Shown here: positions 1-22,506 of the stretch, piece by piece
Layout: every line of letters begins with the position of its first letter
Position numbering within the stretch: position 1 is the first letter of the stretch
Source: Methylococcaceae bacterium
Lineage (GTDB): Bacteria > Pseudomonadota > Gammaproteobacteria > Methylococcales > Methylomonadaceae
Length of the DNA: 33,283 nt
NCBI GenBank assembly: GCA_013141375.1
Contig: JABFRC010000200.1
Location: 1-33,283 of the forward strand
Direction: 5' to 3'
Program-made: the position numbers and the translations under genes
Notes under the pieces: model-generated
Told to the model about the DNA's origin: nothing
Database searches by the model: none
What the model saw: the letters and a program-made list of their open reading frames with translations, nothing else

Positions 1-1668
1 CTTGCAATCGCAAGTGTCGCGCAGGCAGGCCCTTCCCCCGTTGTCAGCTTCGGTTCTTATAAGAGTCATCAAATTAATGTCGACGTATTCGGACAGAATA
101 TTCCTGGTGACCGGGGCAATGAGCCCACGATAGCCCTCAATCCACTCAATCCGGCCAATATTGTTATCGGCTGGCGCATGTTTGATTCACCACCCACAGC
201 CTTGAAACATGGGGGCGTTGGGGTTAGTTTCGATGGTGGCCTGAGTTGGAGTAACTCAAAGCTACAAGCCTTAACGGGACAAACCCGCACCGACCCTGTG
301 CTGGATGTCGATTCAAACGGCAATTTCTATTACCAATCGTTGGGGCTGGGAGGAGAAGACAGAACCTCAGTTTTTAAATCCAGCGATGGGGGGATCAACT
401 GGTCCGAGCCTGTGTTTCAATTTAATGGTGATAAAAACTGGCTTGCCATTGATAAAACCTCAGGTCCCAGCAATGGCATTATCTACAGCACCTGGCGCCG
501 AACCAGCTTTCCCAATCCAGATCCCAGTTATATTCCGAAATATTTCATACGCTCGGTAGATGGCGGTATCAGTTATCAGGAGCCCGATGCCCCATTGCCT
601 GTGCCTTATTTTGGTTTTGGCAGAATCGCAATTGGTCCGGAAGGCAATGTTTATCTTTCCGGCTTTGATGAATCACTCCTTTCTATCAATGCACTCGGTG
701 TTATTCGTCAGGGACACTATTTCTTAAAGTCCGTCAATGCCAAGGAGCCTTCTATTTCACCCACATTTACTGCCAAAAAGATTGATATGGGCGGAAATTC
801 GGTGATGCTTCTTTCTCCGCAGTTGCAACTTCCAAATCCGCTTGGAGGCGATGGCGATATTCAAATTGCTGCCGATCAATCTACCGGTCCTTTACGGGGG
901 AATATATACATGCTCGCCCATGTGGTTCCCTATGACTGGATACCTGGAGGGGATCCGTTGGATGTCCATTTTGTGCGCAGCACCGATGGTGGTGAGACAT
1001 GGTCAGCGTCGACGCGTCTCAACGATGACAGTCCGAGTGCCGACGCCTATCAATGGTTTCCAATGCTTAGCGTAGCACCCAATTCCCGTATCGACGCAGT
1101 TTGGTACGATACCCGCAATGCTACGGGCTTGACGCCCTATCGATTTTCACAACTTTACTACACCTATTCCTGGGACGGCGGCATAACCTGGAGTCATAAC
1201 CAAGCAGTGACGCCGATCTTCAATACCCACCTGCCGAATAGTATTGTGAATGGTGAAGAAAGACCGGCAGATAAAATCGGCGACTACACGCAGATGCTGT
1301 CCGATGCCAATGGTGCACATATCGCCTACACCGCTACTTTCAATGGCGAACAGGATGTGTACTATCTGAATATATTCCCGGACTGTAATAACAACAGGCT
1401 GTCTGATGTGCTCGATATTGAACAACGTAAAAGCGGTGATACCAATGTCAACCATATTCCCGATTCATGCGAGAACATCACTGTATCCGGTGATATAGAC
1501 GGCGACCGCGATGTCGATCAACTGGATGTCAATCTGTTACTGGCCGTTAAAAACAAACCGGCTACCGGTGCGAATGATCCACGGGATTTAGACAAAAATG
1601 GCGTAGTTAACCTGCTGGATGCGCGAAAGCAGACCTTACTATGCACTCGGCCGCGATGTGCTGTGTAG
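1..1668 (+). CDS. Secreted BNR/Asp-box (sialidase-fold) protein with C-terminal dockerin-like domain, 5' truncated
   Basis: Frame 1 is open from base 1 (LAIASVAQAGPSPVVSFGSY..., the tail of a signal peptide) into the listed ORF at 178. Five Asp boxes: SFDGGLSW, SSDGGINW, SVDGGISY, STDGGETW, SWDGGITW. The C-terminus has DCNNNRLSDVLDI..DTNVNHIPDSCE followed by GDIDGDRDVDQLDVNLLL...RDLDKNGVVNLLDARK, two dockerin-like Ca-binding loops. Confidence 0.85.
   Translation, partial: LAIASVAQAGPSPVVSFGSYKSHQINVDVFGQNIPGDRGNEPTIALNPLNPANIVIGWRMFDSPPTALKHGGVGVSFDGGLSWSNSKLQALTGQTRTDPVLDVDSNGNFYYQSLGLGGEDRTSVFKSSDGGINWSEPVFQFNGDKNWLAIDKTSGPSNGIIYSTWRRTSFPNPDPSYIPKYFIRSVDGGISYQEPDAPLPVPYFGFGRIAIGPEGNVYLSGFDESLLSINALGVIRQGHYFLKSVNAKEPSISPTFTAKKIDMGGNSVMLLSPQLQLPNPLGGDGDIQIAADQSTGPLRGNIYMLAHVVPYDWIPGGDPLDVHFVRSTDGGETWSASTRLNDDSPSADAYQWFPMLSVAPNSRIDAVWYDTRNATGLTPYRFSQLYYTYSWDGGITWSHNQAVTPIFNTHLPNSIVNGEERPADKIGDYTQMLSDANGAHIAYTATFNGEQDVYYLNIFPDCNNNRLSDVLDIEQRKSGDTNVNHIPDSCENITVSGDIDGDRDVDQLDVNLLLAVKNKPATGANDPRDLDKNGVVNLLDARKQTLLCTRPRCAV
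1483..1665 (+). other. Dockerin-like tandem EF-hand-type domain (within the BNR CDS)
   Basis: Two loops DxDGDxDVDxxD and DxDKNGVVNxxD about 33 residues apart at the extreme C-terminus. Confidence 0.7.
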
Positions 1669-2456: not shown

Positions 2457-4493
2457 TTGAAAAAACTATTTATTGTTTGTCTGATTTCAATATCAGCACA
2501 TGCCGATGAAACCCTGACCTTGCAAACCATGCAGGTCACCGCAGGTCGTTCGACCATTGACAGCTTTAACGTACCCACTGCTATTACCGTGATCGATCAG
2601 GATGACATTGAAAAACAGGTGCCGCAGATCCTGCCTGATCTGCTGCGGGGACAAACAGGGGTATTTGTGCAGGAAACCACCCCCGGCCAGGGAATTCCCA
2701 TCATCAGAGGTCTAAAAGGATCGGAAGTTCTCTATCTTGTAGATGGTATGCGACTAAGCAATGCCATTTTCCGTAATTCGCCGAATCAGTACACAGCGAT
2801 GCTTGACCCTTTCAATGTAGAAAGCATCGAGGTGTTACGCGGTCCATCATCATCCCTTTATGGCGGCGATGCGATGGGCGGCGTGGTGCAAGTGATGACG
2901 CCCACGCCTCGATTTTACGGCTCCGAATGGCAATCAAACGCCGCATTCGACAACAGTTATGCCAGTGCCGAAAATGCCTTTCAAACCCATATGAAACTTA
3001 GTGCAGGCAATGAGAAACTTGCCGTGCTGGGAGGTTTTGGGTATCAGGATTTTGATGACCGTGTCGCAGGGGGGGGTGAAGAGCAAGCTCATTCAAGTTT
3101 TAAATCCTGGGCGAGCAATAGTAAAGTCATTTACCACCCAAACAATGCTCATGAATTGCTGTTGGACATGCAGTATTACAACCAGCCTAAAACACCGCGT
3201 TATGATGAATTAATGCCGGGATACGGCCAAACCAACCCCAGCTCTTCAGTATTCTACTTCGAGCCCAACGAACGGCTGTTTTTGCATGGCAGATACCGTT
3301 ACACGCACAACACGCCGTTATTTGATAGTCTGGAGTTCCATGCTGCCCATCAACGAATCACGGATGACAGGCGAGCTCGGGATTTCGGAGATTCTATAGA
3401 AACCAGAGAGCGCAATGCCAGTCTTTTAACAGGGTTTACAGTTCAAGCGGCCCTGGCTCATTGGCCCCGTTCTCAATTGGTATACGGTTTTGAGTTTTAT
3501 CATGATGAAGTCGACAGCCGACGTTTTGATACCGATATCAATACAGGAACAGCTTCTACTGAAAAGAGTCGCTTCCCAAACGCTTCCACGATGGATTCTT
3601 ATGCACTGTATGGCAATGAGACCCTGCAGCTTGGCGAGCGCTTGCAGTTCATGCTGGGCACACGCTACAGCCATTACCATACGATACTGGCTCCGGCAGA
3701 TCGCGGCGTTGGCGCCAGGCTCGATCATGATGATGTCACCGGCAATGTCGGTTTGTCCTATTTACTGATTGACGGACTTAAATTTGTCAGCAACTTTGGA
3801 CGCGGTTTTCGTCCGCCGAATGTGTTTGACCTGGGTACGCTGGGCTCTCGACCGGGAAATCGTCACAACATCGCCAATCCCGCACTAACCCCCGAAACCC
3901 TATTGACCTGGGATGGAGGATTCAAATTTCAGAACAGGGTCTGGCAGGCTGAAGCTATCGGCTTTGTTACGGACTACCGAGATAAAATTACCAGTGTGTT
4001 GACCGGTGATAAGATTGCGGGACGTGATGTTGTTCAAAACCAGAATGTTAATAAAGTAAAACTTTACGGAGTAGAATTTGGCGCCCGATTTTTTGCCAGT
4101 GACCAACTTGAACTGTTTAGCAGCGTCAATTACACGCTGGGCGACGAAACCTTCACCGACGGCAAAAGCTTACCGGCAGACCGCATTCCGCCCTTAAATG
4201 GTCGATTCGGCCTACATTACACTCTGATGCCAACACTTTGGATTGAGTCTTATACCCGCTTCGCCAGCAGGCAGAATCGATTGAGTGGTCGTGATCGGGA
4301 TGACCCGCGCATCAATCCGGCGGGGACTGCAGGCTGGGCGACCTTAAATCTTCGTGCTGGCTGGAAACCCCATGAAAATTGGGCACTCCAACTGAGTCTT
4401 GAAAACTTGCTGGACAAAAACTACAGAGAACATGGCTCAGGCATCGATGCAACAGGCGTCAATGTCATCGCCAGCCTGCACATGACCTTGTAA
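2457..4493 (+). CDS. TonB-dependent outer-membrane receptor (haem/siderophore-type)
   Basis: TTG start, signal peptide MKKLFIVCLISISAHA, plug domain (VTAGRS...IPIIRGLKGSEVLYLVDGMRLSNA...VLRGPSSSLYGGDAMGGVVQV), barrel with FRPPNVFDLGTLG and a C-terminal ENLLDKNYREHGSGIDATG...LHMTL. Confidence 0.9.
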   Translation: MKKLFIVCLISISAHADETLTLQTMQVTAGRSTIDSFNVPTAITVIDQDDIEKQVPQILPDLLRGQTGVFVQETTPGQGIPIIRGLKGSEVLYLVDGMRLSNAIFRNSPNQYTAMLDPFNVESIEVLRGPSSSLYGGDAMGGVVQVMTPTPRFYGSEWQSNAAFDNSYASAENAFQTHMKLSAGNEKLAVLGGFGYQDFDDRVAGGGEEQAHSSFKSWASNSKVIYHPNNAHELLLDMQYYNQPKTPRYDELMPGYGQTNPSSSVFYFEPNERLFLHGRYRYTHNTPLFDSLEFHAAHQRITDDRRARDFGDSIETRERNASLLTGFTVQAALAHWPRSQLVYGFEFYHDEVDSRRFDTDINTGTASTEKSRFPNASTMDSYALYGNETLQLGERLQFMLGTRYSHYHTILAPADRGVGARLDHDDVTGNVGLSYLLIDGLKFVSNFGRGFRPPNVFDLGTLGSRPGNRHNIANPALTPETLLTWDGGFKFQNRVWQAEAIGFVTDYRDKITSVLTGDKIAGRDVVQNQNVNKVKLYGVEFGARFFASDQLELFSSVNYTLGDETFTDGKSLPADRIPPLNGRFGLHYTLMPTLWIESYTRFASRQNRLSGRDRDDPRINPAGTAGWATLNLRAGWKPHENWALQLSLENLLDKNYREHGSGIDATGVNVIASLHMTL

Positions 4494-4519: not shown

Positions 4520-5233
4520 TTGCTCATGAGCTACTTTCACTGCCAGCAGTTTTCGGTACGACAACAGCAGTCGGCGATGAAGATTTGTACCGATGGTTTG
4601 TTGTTTGGGGCGATGGCGCCGATTAAGCCTGGTGATACTGTTCTGGATATTGGCGCCGGTACCGGCGTGCTGTCGTTGATGGCCGCGCAGCTGGGAGCTG
4701 AGAGGGTGACAGCGGTGGAATTGACCCGCGAAGCCTATGAAGAAGCCGGTTTCAATTTCAGCAATAGCCCATGGTCGGATCGATTGACAGCGGTACATCG
4801 GGATATTCAAAGCTATGCCAGGGAGGAAGATTCGGTCTACGACGTCCTCATCAGTAATCCGCCGTTTTTTGTGCAGCACAGCAAGTCTGTCAGTCCTTCC
4901 AGAAGTATCGCCAGGCATACGGATAGTTTGTCTTTTGCCGAGTTGATTGTGGTAGTTGAGAAATTACTTGCACCACAGGGTTTGTTTTATGTGCTGTTGC
5001 CCACCAATGCGGCGATGCAATTTTCCGAGCTCGCATTGGTGGCGGGCTTGTTTCTAAGTCAGCAAATAAGTTATCGGGGCTATGAAGATAGCCCGACTAA
5101 GGTATCCGCATTGACCTTTAGCCGTATAAAGGCAGATTGTGAATATGGGTTGTTGACAATTTATCAGTCGAAAAGTATTTATACCTTAGCAAGTCAGGCC
5201 TATTTACAGGATTTTTTACTGCGCTTTGCCTAA
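4520..5233 (+). CDS. trmN6: tRNA1(Val) (adenine(37)-N6)-methyltransferase
   Basis: FSVRQQQSAMKICTDGLLFGAMA, SAM motif VLDIGAGTGVLSLMAAQ and catalytic ISNPPFF, as in TrmN6/YfiC. Confidence 0.88.
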   Translation: MLMSYFHCQQFSVRQQQSAMKICTDGLLFGAMAPIKPGDTVLDIGAGTGVLSLMAAQLGAERVTAVELTREAYEEAGFNFSNSPWSDRLTAVHRDIQSYAREEDSVYDVLISNPPFFVQHSKSVSPSRSIARHTDSLSFAELIVVVEKLLAPQGLFYVLLPTNAAMQFSELALVAGLFLSQQISYRGYEDSPTKVSALTFSRIKADCEYGLLTIYQSKSIYTLASQAYLQDFLLRFA

Positions 5234-7064: not shown

Positions 7065-7324
7065 AAGCATCCTCTTCAATTTCTTCCGTTTTAACAGCTT
7101 GGCTAAAACGGGATGGTTGTTAGCGATTTGGTCTGGCAATGATAGCGTAGTTTGCCCGTCAAATTAGCAAACAAGTCTTAAAGCCTTGCGCTTAAGTTTA
7201 GAAGTCCTTAACTGAAGCGCTACTGAATTAACACGAGTTGTAATTGAATGATTACACCTGCACTGGTTTGAACAGGCTAAAGCAAGGTATGCTTAGTACA
7301 CTTAAACCGCTGGAGATATTGATA

Positions 7325-8545
7325 ATGCAATTCCCATTCAGATTGATGTTTAGGACGGCAATACTGATTCTGCTGAGTGTTGTGCTTGTTGGTTGCGCTA
7401 GGCAAAATGCTATGCCAAATCAAGGGACCAAATCGTCTTATCAATTACTCTCGCTGGGTTTATATGAACTGAGCTCGTTTGATGCCATCGTCCATGATGA
7501 TTCCGTTCATGTCGTGGTTGTCGGTCTGGAAACTGTTTCCAGTAAAGCATCGGTTTTTCGCTATATCCACTCTGAAGATGGCGGCAGACACTGGTCGCTG
7601 CCAGTCGATTTAGGTGCAGATCTGCCCGCTTCTTTAGCCGCACGAGGCAATGATATTCAACTGGCCGTTAGCGGTAAGAATTTATTGGCTGTGTGGCAAA
7701 GTAAGGGGGAACTTCCCGGCATGGGGCCGATGGCCAGCGTTTATTCTCATGATGGGGGTAAAATCTGGCAAGCCGGTGCGAATCCGGCGGCTAATGATTT
7801 CGGCGATCAGGCGCATATTGATTTGGTTGCTGATCAACAGGGCAATTTTCATGCGGTTTGGCTGGAAGATCCGGAAGAAAATGGCTATCAAAGTTTGCGT
7901 TATGCCCGTTCAGTCGATGCCGGAGAGCATTGGCAGCCCGGCGTCAGGTTAGACGACAGTACCTGTTCGTGTTGCTGGAATACCTTGCGGGTGTCGACAA
8001 CTGGTCAACTGGATGTGTTGTATCGGGATATGGAGCCACGCGATATGGCGCTGGTACGATCCACCGACCATGGCAGTCAATGGCAACCGGTTAGTAAGGT
8101 GGGTGACTTTCATTGGCAGTTTGACGGCTGTCCGCATATTGGTGGCGGTTTAACTTATACCGACCAGTCCGAGCAATTACAGGCAATCGTTTGGACCGGC
8201 GCAGAGCCTAAACCCGGTTTATATCATCTGCACTCTGAAAATAACGGCCAAACCTGGTCTGCGCCGCAGCCCATGGGCATTCGGGGTTTACATGGCGATA
8301 TTGCTGCAATAGATAGCAAGCATGTGCTTGCGGTTTGGGATGAGTTGGGGCCTGAAGGCTCGAGTATTGTTTCCGAGTTATCGAGCGATGGCGGGATAAG
8401 CTGGGCAAATGTTCAAACGCTATCAAAACCAGGTTCGATGGTTACTCATCCCAGAATTGTTGCCACGTCAGCGGGATTTTTGGCTTTATGGTCAGAAAAA
8501 CAGCCCAAACAAAAAAACCAACTGGCGATAGCTGTATTTGATTAA
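7325..8545 (+). CDS. BNR/sialidase-fold lipoprotein
   Basis: Start at 7325 after GGAG. Lipobox LSVVLVGC. Asp boxes SEDGGRHW, SHDGGKIW, SVDAGEHW, STDHGSQW, SENNGQTW, SSDGGISW. CSCC motif (DDSTCSCCWNTL). Confidence 0.85.
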   Translation: MQFPFRLMFRTAILILLSVVLVGCARQNAMPNQGTKSSYQLLSLGLYELSSFDAIVHDDSVHVVVVGLETVSSKASVFRYIHSEDGGRHWSLPVDLGADLPASLAARGNDIQLAVSGKNLLAVWQSKGELPGMGPMASVYSHDGGKIWQAGANPAANDFGDQAHIDLVADQQGNFHAVWLEDPEENGYQSLRYARSVDAGEHWQPGVRLDDSTCSCCWNTLRVSTTGQLDVLYRDMEPRDMALVRSTDHGSQWQPVSKVGDFHWQFDGCPHIGGGLTYTDQSEQLQAIVWTGAEPKPGLYHLHSENNGQTWSAPQPMGIRGLHGDIAAIDSKHVLAVWDELGPEGSSIVSELSSDGGISWANVQTLSKPGSMVTHPRIVATSAGFLALWSEKQPKQKNQLAIAVFD

Positions 8546-19220: not shown

Positions 19221-19964
19221 CTAGCCGAAGTCCACTACTGATTTTTCGGCGAGTTCCAGCAAGATTTGTAGCCCTCCATTTTTGATGATGTCAGGATTGG
19301 CGGGCTTCAATTCATCAGTGACTTGTTGAAGTACGTCCTTTGTTTGAATGCCTTCGTTTTGTTCAATAATTTCCAGTAAGCGATAGGTCAGCGGAGTTAT
19401 TTCGATAAAGTTCACTTCATCATCCGGATTACGATAGACCGCCAGAAAAGTGGGTTGCTCAGGCAGATTTTTCGGCAGACAGTCTGGTGAAATGGTATGC
19501 ACCGGGTACTGATAAACCAGTGGCCAGGCTAGCGGCGATAACTTGAGTTGGGCTTGCAGCGGATCATCTATCGGTAATGGTGCACTGACGTTCTCTTTGG
19601 CAATCGATAAAGCCATTTCCACCCATTCGTAATGCGCAAGCTCAAACATAAACGCAAAATCATTCGTGCTATCCCGTTCATCTTGCAGATAGCCGAGAAA
19701 TTCTTCAGGAATTTCAGAAAAAAAAGGCGATTGATTGTGGTGATTGGCAAAAAAATCTTCAGTCAGAGCTTGCCATTGTGCATCGTTAAGAATTTTTCTG
19801 AGCACCGGAAAGGTGCTGGCAAGAAAGCTATCAATATTGTTATAAAACAGCTGGCGGTACATCGCCATACGCTCCGGCTTAACGTCGGCTGGTGCAGGGT
19901 TGACCTGAGGATTTCTAATGTAAGCGGCAAACTCTTGCTGTTTGGCTTTAAAGTCAATGTTCAT
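19221..19964 (-). CDS. hvfC: DUF2063 / HvfC-like protein (DUF692 partner)
   Basis: FAAYIRNPQVNPAPADVKPERMAMYRQLFYNNIDSFLASTFPVLRKILNDAQWQALTEDFFANHHNQSPFFSEIPEEFLGYL. Directly downstream of the DUF692 gene (5-bp gap). Confidence 0.9.
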   Translation of the reverse strand: MNIDFKAKQQEFAAYIRNPQVNPAPADVKPERMAMYRQLFYNNIDSFLASTFPVLRKILNDAQWQALTEDFFANHHNQSPFFSEIPEEFLGYLQDERDSTNDFAFMFELAHYEWVEMALSIAKENVSAPLPIDDPLQAQLKLSPLAWPLVYQYPVHTISPDCLPKNLPEQPTFLAVYRNPDDEVNFIEITPLTYRLLEIIEQNEGIQTKDVLQQVTDELKPANPDIIKNGGLQILLELAEKSVVDFG

Positions 19965-19969
19965 TAACT

Positions 19970-20821
19970 TTAGGCCGATGCTTTGGCGTGCTGGTCGGAC
20001 CAGGCTGCTTGTATCGTTTTAATGGTATTTACTTCCAGCAAAAGCTCGGACAAAGGCGGAATATTGAAATCCCTTTCCAGTAAGGTTGGAAATACTCCGT
20101 AAAGTTCATAAGCCTTACCCAGTAAGTTCCAGACCGGGTCGATAATCGGCGCGCCGTGGGTATCCACCAAAAAATCGTCGGCTTCAACATAGTGTCCTGC
20201 GATATGAGCATAAGCGATGCGATGAGCGGGGATGGCTTTTAAAAAAGCTTCGGCATCGTAACCATGATTGACGCTATTGACGTAGATATTGTTGATGTCG
20301 ATCAGAATGTCGCAATTAGCTTCTTCCACCACAGCATTAAAAAAATCGATTTCCGTCATTTCCTGGCCAGGTGCGGCGTAATACGAAACATTTTCGATAG
20401 CGATTTTTTGTTCCAGAATGTCCTGTACCCGGCTAATACGTTCAGCTACATGAGTGACAGCTTCGCTAGTGAAAGGAATAGGCATCAAGTCGTATAAATG
20501 GCCGCCATGACTACAGTAGCTTAAGTGTTCGCTGTAAAGTTTGATTTGATGCTCGGCCATAAAGGCTTTGATGGCATGAACAAATTGCTCGTCCAACGGA
20601 TCGGTGCTGCCTATGGATAATGACAGGCCATGGCATATAAAGTTGCAGCGTTCAGTCATGGCGCGGAATTGTTTGCCCAATTTACCGCCGATGGGAATCC
20701 AGTTTTCCGGTGCGACTTCGTAAAAACCTACTTCTGATGGAGGTGCATTGAGTATTTTCGCCAAAATAGAACGTCTCAGGCCTAGACCGGCACCATCAAC
20801 CAAGAATTGAGTTGTGTCCAT
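19970..20821 (-). CDS. hvfB: DUF692 / HvfB (MbnB-like) multinuclear-iron peptide-modifying enzyme
   Basis: GLGLRRSIL, FYEVAPENWI, HGLSLSIGS, SEHLSYC, DLMPIPFT, IAIENVSYY, ILIDINNIYVNSVNHG, AHIAGH, VDTHG, LLERDFNIPPLSELL. Confidence 0.93.
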   Translation of the reverse strand: MDTTQFLVDGAGLGLRRSILAKILNAPPSEVGFYEVAPENWIPIGGKLGKQFRAMTERCNFICHGLSLSIGSTDPLDEQFVHAIKAFMAEHQIKLYSEHLSYCSHGGHLYDLMPIPFTSEAVTHVAERISRVQDILEQKIAIENVSYYAAPGQEMTEIDFFNAVVEEANCDILIDINNIYVNSVNHGYDAEAFLKAIPAHRIAYAHIAGHYVEADDFLVDTHGAPIIDPVWNLLGKAYELYGVFPTLLERDFNIPPLSELLLEVNTIKTIQAAWSDQHAKASA

Positions 20822-20848
20822 AAGAACACCTGTGTTGAATTTTAAGGT

Positions 20849-20871
20849 GAGGGCATGAGACTCATGCCCTC
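20849..20871. promoter_or_regulatory. Intra-operonic perfect hairpin between precursor and hvfB
   Basis: GAGGGCATGAG-A-CTCATGCCCTC, 11-bp perfect arms, 28 nt after the hvfA-like stop on the minus strand. No T-tract. Confidence 0.75.
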
Positions 20872-20898
20872 CGCAGCGAGTAAAGCAATCTTGGTGAT

Positions 20899-21765
20899 TT
20901 ATTTTTTAGGAACGTAGGGAATCACTTTGATCAGACTTTTATCTAAGCCGTATTTATCGTGCTGCTCGTCACTCTTCTTATCTGCATCGGGATGATGAGC
21001 GTCATGGCCCGCAGCTGCTTCAGGGCTGATAGTGGTTTGGGTATCTTTTTTAACGGCAGAGTCCATCGCGCCGCATGCGCCTTCCTTGCCTTTCATCATA
21101 GCACCGCAACTTTGCTCCAGGCCTGGTTTCATTTTGCCGCCTTGCATCATCGCACCGCACATGCCTTCGCCACAGGCGCCTTCGGCAGTTTTAGTTACCG
21201 GTTTTTCTGCAGCTTTGGTTTCAGTGGCAGCGGCACCGCAAGCGCCGTCTTTGCCTTTCATCATCGCGCCGCAGTTATGTTCAAGACCGGGCTTCATTTT
21301 GTCACCCTGCATCATAGCGCCACACATGCCTTCTCCACAGGCGCCTTCGGTGGCTTTAGCGGCTGGTTTTTCCGCAGGTTTACTGTCAGTCGTTCCTGCA
21401 CCACAAGCGCCTTCTTTGCCTTTCATCATGGCACCGCAACTTTGTTCCAGTCCCGGTTTCATTTTGCCGTCTTGCATCATTGCGCCGCATTTACCTTCGC
21501 CACATGAGCCTTCGGTTGACTTTGATGTAGGTTTATCGGCTGCTTTTGTTGGTTTGCCTGCACAAGCACCCTCGGGAGCTTTAGGGTCTTTCATATTCAT
21601 GCTGGCGCCACAGGCCATTTCTGCTGCGGCAACTTGCATATAGCCAGAAGATAACTCAGTCATACCAAAAGGATTGGCCTCGGCACTGACTGGGCTGGCT
21701 GAGAGTGTCGAGATAAATGCGGCACCCATCGCAGCCGCTAAAGGGGTTTTGTTGATTTTTTTCAC
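20899..21765 (-). CDS. hvfA: HvfA-like secreted Cys-rich precursor protein with three 55-aa Cys/Met repeat modules
   Basis: Signal peptide then NPFGMTELSSGYMQVA (as in EGKCG low-complexity/HvfA-type leaders), EGSCGEGKCG/EGACGEGMCG motifs, and an adjacent DUF692-DUF2063 pair. 14 Cys counted. Confidence 0.88.
   Translation of the reverse strand: MKKINKTPLAAAMGAAFISTLSASPVSAEANPFGMTELSSGYMQVAAAEMACGASMNMKDPKAPEGACAGKPTKAADKPTSKSTEGSCGEGKCGAMMQDGKMKPGLEQSCGAMMKGKEGACGAGTTDSKPAEKPAAKATEGACGEGMCGAMMQGDKMKPGLEHNCGAMMKGKDGACGAAATETKAAEKPVTKTAEGACGEGMCGAMMQGGKMKPGLEQSCGAMMKGKEGACGAMDSAVKKDTQTTISPEAAAGHDAHHPDADKKSDEQHDKYGLDKSLIKVIPYVPKK
21067..21513 (-). repeat. Coding tandem repeat, 165-bp period (55 codons), three units (last one truncated)
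   Basis: Anchor TTGCCTTTCATCAT on + occurs at 21086, 21251 and 21416, exactly 165 bp apart. Protein units start at E85, E140 and E195. Confidence 0.9.
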
Positions 21766-21870: not shown

Positions 21871-22506
21871 CTAGGTGGCTTGTTTATCTTTGAATTCGCA
21901 CAGATCAACAACAACGCAATTCGGGCAACGTGGTTTTCTGGCTATGCAGGTATAACGGCCATGTAAAATAAGTAAGTGATGGGCGTCTTTTTTGTATTTT
22001 TCATTCACCACTTTATCCAGCTTACGTTCCACGTCAAGTACCGTTTTACCTGGCGCCAGACCGGTGCGATTAGCTACTCTAAAAATGTGTGTATCGACAG
22101 CGATCACCGCGTGACCAAAGGCGGTATTAAGAATGACATTGGCGGTTTTTCTGCCCACGCCCGCCAATGCTTCCAGTTCAGCTCGGGTTGTCGGTACTTG
22201 CCCTTGATGCTTGTCCAGCAACTGCTGACACAGCGTAATAATGTGGGCCGCTTTGCTGTTAAACAAGCCGATCGTTTTAATAAATTCTTTCAGGCCCCTC
22301 TCGCCTAAGGCCAATATGCTTTCCGGTGTATTAGCAACTGGAAACAAAAGGCTGGTGGCCTTGTTGACACCTTTGTCAGTTGCTTGCGCTGACAAAACAA
22401 CTGCAATTAGCAATTCAAACGACGTGCTGTAATTTAATTCGGTTTGGGGATCGGGGATAGCCTGAGCCAGACGTTCGAAGATTGCCAGCCGTTTTGCTGC
22501 ATTCAC
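21871..22506 (-). CDS. nth: Endonuclease III
   Basis: FELLIAVVLSAQATDKGVNKAT, LAGVGRKTANVILN, HIFRVANRTGLA, C-terminal CIARKPRCPNCVVVDLC Fe-S motif. Confidence 0.97.
   Translation of the reverse strand: MNAAKRLAIFERLAQAIPDPQTELNYSTSFELLIAVVLSAQATDKGVNKATSLLFPVANTPESILALGERGLKEFIKTIGLFNSKAAHIITLCQQLLDKHQGQVPTTRAELEALAGVGRKTANVILNTAFGHAVIAVDTHIFRVANRTGLAPGKTVLDVERKLDKVVNEKYKKDAHHLLILHGRYTCIARKPRCPNCVVVDLCEFKDKQAT

Follow-up and report, generated by a model that had tools for sequence, protein, structure and literature searches.

An hvfABC-type operon of a methanotroph with a repeated Cys/Met module in its precursor

The peptides initially called Buf_EGKCG or oxazolins have been renamed captophorins and are 5-thiooxazole copper peptides. 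Particulate methane monooxygenase (pMMO) gives methanotrophs a high demand for copper, and periplasmic copper handling in those methanotrophs without methanobactin is poorly settled. At the enzyme level, it has been reported that MNIOs acting on EGKCG-type precursors share an Arg-Arg pair and an Asp-Phe pair, whereas in the Cys-Lys (Buf2-type) enzymes the second Arg is lost and Asp replaces Phe (PMC13097082). The substrate scope described for the FonBC pair comprises E or D at position 1 of the target pentad, K, A, R or T at position 3, and G or A after the Cys (PMC13097082). The locus described here was found in a stretch of 33,283 nucleotides from a Methylococcaceae bacterium (contig JABFRC010000200.1 of assembly GCA_013141375.1), which is referred to below as the window.

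The operon and its enzymes

Three consecutive and intact genes occupy the minus strand of the window: a precursor gene of the HvfA/Buf_EGKCG type, that is, a captophorin precursor (20899..21765; 288 aa, GTG start), hvfB for an MNIO (DUF692) enzyme (19970..20821; 283 aa) and hvfC for a DUF2063 partner with an RRE (PME type 1; 19221..19964; 247 aa). The initial annotation was therefore right in placing a DUF692 and a DUF2063 gene directly downstream of a secreted Cys-rich protein. The hvfB product matches PF05114 with 353 bits and exceeds the cut-off of the NCBIfam HvfB model NF003818 (437.4 bits against 360), and the hvfC product matches PF09836 (93.5 bits) and PF22106 (104 bits) and exceeds the cut-off of NF050145 (305.6 bits against 142). 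The two proteins also match PDB entries 3BWW and 3DEE, respectively, both of which have been named as members of this type of pathway (PMC13097082). Three stretches of the precursor match the KCGExKCG domain model NF050137, with a score above its cut-off (30.5 bits against 19.5), and the cut-off of the HvfA equivalog NF050188 is not reached (36.9 against 95); judged by these scores the precursor is a relative of HvfA and, by the NCBI rule, not an HvfA orthologue. The filing of the locus as an hvfABC-type RiPP operon is backed by curated models, by the gene order in relatives and by the published chemistry of the class. The gene nth, for endonuclease III (21871..22506, minus strand; TIGR01083, 265.5 bits), is a conserved upstream neighbour: of 45 relative loci of full length, 41 have it beside the operon. 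It is not proposed to belong to the pathway. No metal or copper gene adjoining the operon was found in the window, and no protease gene lies within the operon. Elsewhere, the window encodes a TonB-dependent receptor (PF00593, PF07715; 2457-4493, plus strand), for which there is no evidence of a link to the operon, followed by a methyltransferase-like gene recognised by eye (4520-5233), and two BNR/Asp-box repeat proteins near one end of the window (178-1668 and 7244-8545, plus strand).

The enzyme of the window can be assigned to the EGKCG (Lys-Cys) subgroup by its R16-R17 and D251-F252 pairs, and the same residues are kept in its relatives, with R-R in 78 of 80 and ERD-F in 79 of 80. It falls below the cut-offs of the BufB model NF050167 (268.6 against 310) and of the MbnB model TIGR04159 (50.9 against 325), and the latter score rules out a methanobactin system. 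A PF05114 search of the genome found no methanobactin-type enzyme. The one further MNIO encoded in the genome (L001) carries R-T and D-D at the diagnostic positions, scores 386 against the BufB cut-off of 310 and lies beside a BufA2 precursor (85.7 against a cut-off of 60). Because this second MNIO differs in residues, model score and adjacent precursor, the genome holds two distinct captophorin operons. The L001 operon (G000 contig C71, 686-2797) is made up of the BufA2 precursor, the BufB-type MNIO and a low-scoring HvfC-like partner, and displays a hairpin (AAAGGGGCAA-TATTC-TTGCCCCTTT) and then T-rich sequence ahead of the MNIO gene. DoxX is frequent, but not universal, in such clusters, and no DoxX protein (PF07681) was found in this genome, which is 96% complete.

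The precursor, its leader and its Cys/Met module

The precursor starts with a Sec signal peptide, predicted by sequence inspection from a KK n-region, a hydrophobic core and a VSA/EA site (residues 1-28, MKKINKTPLAAAMGAAFISTLSASPVSA; 21682..21765, minus strand), and continues with a conserved mature-peptide start (residues 29-46, EANPFGMTELSSGYMQVA; 21628..21681, minus strand). Signal cleavage is predicted at VSA/EANPFG and is likely to occur after A28, a residue invariant in relatives, so that the mature end would be EANPFG and not the NPFG assumed initially, while the claim of a secreted protein stands. The NPF...LSSGYM pattern also occurs in EGKCG precursors of other Gammaproteobacteria. 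Signal peptides usually drift in sequence; among 58 ungapped relatives, mean column identity reaches 91% over residues 29-46 and 84% over residues 1-28, the latter being high for a signal peptide. This unusual conservation of the signal/leader region, which the alignment brings up as a new observation, would fit the leader role reported for HvfA, which is barely modified without its signal and whose signal is treated as the leader (PMC13419390). By analogy, residues 1-28 probably serve also as the leader read by HvfC.

Downstream of this region the protein is rich in sulfur-containing residues, with 14 Cys, 25 Met and, as the initial annotation had counted, six copies of CGAMM. All 14 Cys lie within [ED]xxC[GA] pentads, whereas 20,000 shuffled sequences contained 0.55 such Cys on average and never more than 4, and 584 of the 701 Cys in 76 unique precursors (that of the window included) fit the same pattern. 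Since every one of them agrees with the FonBC-type substrate pattern, the 14 Cys are, by analogy, candidate 5-thiooxazole sites, with a candidate mass change of about -56 Da in total. Against this reading counts that some pentads have S, M or N as their third residue, outside the FonBC variants found in PMC13097082. Twelve Cys fall inside three modules and the other two upstream (EMACG and EGACA), and the early description of about 14 Cys in three modules thus stands for both numbers and fails for the placement of two Cys. The large size ascribed to the precursor is not exceptional either: published precursors of the family reach lengths of 506 aa and contain as many as 58 Cys (PMC12452194), and in FonA seven Cys are modified (PMC13097082). 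For this reason enlargement is not the novelty of the locus. A match to the Cys-rich repeat PF00839 (E 0.041; 14.4 against 22 bits) was set aside as chance.

The repetition itself is regular. Tandem Repeats Finder detects a period of 165 bp with 2.7 copies and 78% matches, and the three module starts are spaced by exactly 55 aa. On the minus strand, module 1 (55 aa, EGSCGEGKCGAMMQDGKMKPGLEQSCGAMMKGKEGACGA plus linker) spans 21349..21513, module 2 (55 aa, EGACGEGMCGAMMQGDKMKPGLEHNCGAMMKGKDGACGA plus linker) spans 21184..21348, and module 3 (39 aa, EGACGEGMCGAMMQGGKMKPGLEQSCGAMMKGKEGACGA), in which the repeated linker is absent, spans 21067..21183. The linkers are made of Lys, Ala and Pro, such as PAEKPAAK, and among relatives they differ in sequence and length. 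Within the modules lies a core, CGxMMxxGKMKxGxExxCGAMMKGKEGACG (consensus CGAMMKDGKMKPGMEAACGAMMKGKEGACG), which measures 30 residues in all 78 copies. The initial annotation had proposed a search for the 55-aa module in precursors adjoining DUF692 genes, and the core was found in 63 of 71 precursors; most relatives have one CGxMMKGK copy and some up to four. Between the modules of the window dN is 0.09-0.10 (about 0.1 for modules 1 and 2) and dS exceeds 1 in all pairs, that is, synonymous sites are saturated; the combination suggests that the repeats are old and that either purifying selection or homogenisation of the protein sequence has kept them alike. In the AlphaFold model, poor overall and mostly disordered (mean pLDDT 53.1, pTM 0.21), the module cores stand out as blocks with pLDDT of 71-78, each a small beta-hairpin plus helix, which hints at modules arranged as beads on a string. 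A beta-helix fold, reported for another class member (PMC12452194), was considered for the precursor and rejected, as it is absent from this model.

Distribution in methanotrophs and the intercistronic hairpin

Relatives of HvfB with 78-87% identity occur in Methylobacter, Methylovulum, Crenothrix, Methylomonas and related methanotrophs, and in 74 of 80 hvfB loci a precursor lies just upstream of the enzyme gene, most of the other six ending at a contig edge. Homologous precursors located away from DUF692 genes, which had been named as evidence against the assignment, are thus not what the relatives present. A precursor homologue exists in 147 of 151 genomes of the methanotroph family of the window and in 174 of 201 genomes of the order sampled. 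With a 42-aa module as query, matches were obtained in 131 of 151 family genomes and 27 of 29 genera. In the order sample (201 genomes) there were 116 matches, all in the same family and none in other families, and in samples of 387 class and 349 phylum genomes the sole match was the genome of the window, the class sample including one further genome of the family, without the module. These counts refer to a single query sequence, which may miss diverged copies, and to samples that do not span every species. The plain EGKCG domain, in turn, matches 76 of 291 class genomes, and C[GA]xM after Cys was found at 5 of 249 Cys in class EGKCG precursors against 258 of 655 in those of the family. Because module matches and C[GA]xM are confined to or enriched in this methanotroph family, the Cys/Met module seems to have arisen there as a new trait, and the Met-rich repeat appears to be confined to the family. 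Judged from these surveys, the module is the unusual part of the locus and a family-wide trait of these methanotrophs, not of one gene, and the stress on the Met pairs was the best lead of the initial annotation. Neither the module nor the class members of methanotrophs are mentioned in the main texts of the class literature searched. Variation in precursor organisation was also observed: two loci (L101 and L110, ~2867-3891) have tandem precursor genes upstream of one MNIO, of 117 aa with 4 Cys and 209 aa with 9 Cys, and three of Methylotuvimicrobium/Methylomicrobium type (L096, L098 and L106) have a short precursor of 110-111 aa with 5 Cys and without the CGAMM module, which makes the latter a natural comparison set. 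Among culturable relatives, Methylobacter luteus (L055) and Methylovulum miyakonense (L084) carry the module, and Methylotuvimicrobium buryatense (L098) does not.

Between the precursor gene and hvfB lies an RNA hairpin (GAGGGCATGA-GTC-TCATGCCCTC; 20849..20871, minus strand) that ends 27 nt ahead of the start codon of hvfB (ATG). A sequence alignment of 39 relatives gives 94.2% paired cells. This percentage is biased upward, as the window supplied the arms and the loci had been chosen for a hairpin at about that distance; the covariation, with 11 of 11 pairs changed on both sides, is less exposed to this bias. None of 500 shuffles reached as high a pairing, slid controls were likewise far below, and 64 of 73 unique intergenic regions fold with z < -2 relative to mononucleotide shuffles. 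A dispersed genomic repeat was rejected, as a genome search that tolerated 2 mismatches located the hairpin at one site only, and so was an ordinary intrinsic terminator, since no T-run follows it and the terminator scan returned no such site. No Rfam match was obtained for the hairpin, and nothing useful was found in the literature on intergenic hairpins in RiPP operons. In the few loci of other Gammaproteobacteria for which the MNIO start was located, the corresponding gaps are mostly 2-31 nt. The likely role of the hairpin is to let more precursor than enzyme be made, and it might do so by partial termination or by protection of the mRNA end. Upstream of the operon, a GGTATCAT-like stretch is partly conserved in some relatives in a poor alignment, and a promoter scan of this region returned none on the minus strand.

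Proposed function and comparison with known systems

Taken together, the operon is best read as a methanotroph captophorin (Buf_EGKCG/oxazolin-type) operon making a periplasmic copper buffer or store, with a probability of roughly 0.7. In the cytoplasm, HvfC would attach to the precursor at its conserved signal/leader region, and HvfB would oxidise the Cys of up to 14 pentads to 5-thiooxazoles, with a loss of 4 Da each. Sec would then export the product and the signal would be cut after A28 to leave a peptide of about 260 aa, which might bind several Cu(I) ions in the periplasm through the 5-thiooxazole sulfurs, the flanking Met pairs offering extra soft ligands. Such a buffer or store is proposed to act in a pMMO-bearing methanotroph, since the genome encodes a pMMO/AMO-family (PF02461) protein and a copper need of the host follows from it. 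Counting against this reading are the absence of a metal gene beside the operon, the score below the HvfA equivalog cut-off and the failure to find a DoxX gene in the genome. A more ambitious version, considerably more tentative, would see here a captophorin design of the family's own, in which 5-thiooxazoles and Met-Met thioethers form a small folded Cu(I) site in each module. The peptide would then be a high-capacity periplasmic store that supplies pMMO or shields it, and the hairpin would set the excess of precursor.

Other readings of the same data differ mainly in the fate of the cysteines and in the stress served. The strongest competitor, still a minority view, would restrict 5-thiooxazoles to the EGxCG Cys and leave those of E[QH][SN]CGAMM as thiols that, together with the Met pairs, make up a small folded Cu(I) site per module; the fixed spacing of the 30-residue core and its small modelled hairpin and helix within an otherwise disordered chain speak for it, but the CGAMM Cys too match [ED]xxC[GA], and the AlphaFold model is poor as a whole. 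It is rather unlikely that copper binding is incidental and that the operon serves oxidative stress, gold, mercury or another soft metal. Class members do respond to gold and oxidative stress besides copper (PMC13097082) and no copper gene adjoins the operon, but copper binding has been shown for fontiphorin and gonophorin (PMC13097082), oxazolin has been described as copper-binding (PMC13419390), and the pMMO-family protein of the host again implies a copper need. A multi-core RiPP, already suggested in the initial annotation, found no support and is improbable; its precursor would be cleaved within the Lys/Ala/Pro linkers to give three copper peptides: published work leaves the cutting of EGKCG products open (PMC13097082) and the three modules are nearly identical, but a protease gene is absent from the operon, the linkers are not conserved and a single CGxMMKGK copy is the rule among relatives. 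Least credible of all is that the repeats are neutral slippage products without function beyond one module, for the variable module number among relatives would be expected from it, but saturated synonymous sites beside protein differences of about 0.1 per site argue that selection maintains each module or that homogenisation acts on the protein sequence.

If the captophorin reading holds, a modified Cys/Met peptide present in nearly every sampled genome of the family would be a direct candidate for periplasmic copper handling, and the natural series from one to several modules suits the study of how the number of thiooxazoles and of Met pairs relates to copper capacity. Copper storage proteins (Csp; PMC5171941) resemble it in using many Cys for Cu(I) storage and in being known from methanotrophs, and differ in being four-helix bundles, a fold not predicted for the precursor of the window, with unmodified thiols. 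In methanobactin (MbnA/MbnB/MbnC), known likewise from methanotrophs, an MNIO also modifies a Cys peptide that serves copper; however, a different heterocycle is reported for it, the partner in the window is DUF2063/RRE and not MbnC, and the precursor carries a Sec signal. Closer in kind are the bufferins Buf1 (DUF2282) and Buf2/BufA2, which share the types of enzyme pair and the nature of periplasmic copper peptides, with a BufA2 operon also present in the same genome, but they belong to another precursor family, and the MNIO of the window stays under the BufB cut-off (268.6 against 310). The closest systems are the EGKCG captophorins (HvfA, FonA/fontiphorin, gonophorin and bulbicupramide), with which the locus has in common a Sec-signal precursor, E-x-x-C-G motifs, the NPF...LSSGYM region, the gene order precursor-MNIO-PME1 and the MNIO residues of the EGKCG subgroup. 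Unlike them, it displays a repeat of 55 aa built around a Cys/Met core of 30 aa, together with CGAMM pairs, in contrast to the plain EGKCG or 17-residue double-EGKCG repeat of the described precursors, the latter being absent here and typical of one type of member and not class-defining; it also lacks a predicted beta-helix and has a covarying hairpin between genes A and B. What is known, then, is the peptide class and its long precursors, and what is new is the Met-rich module variant.
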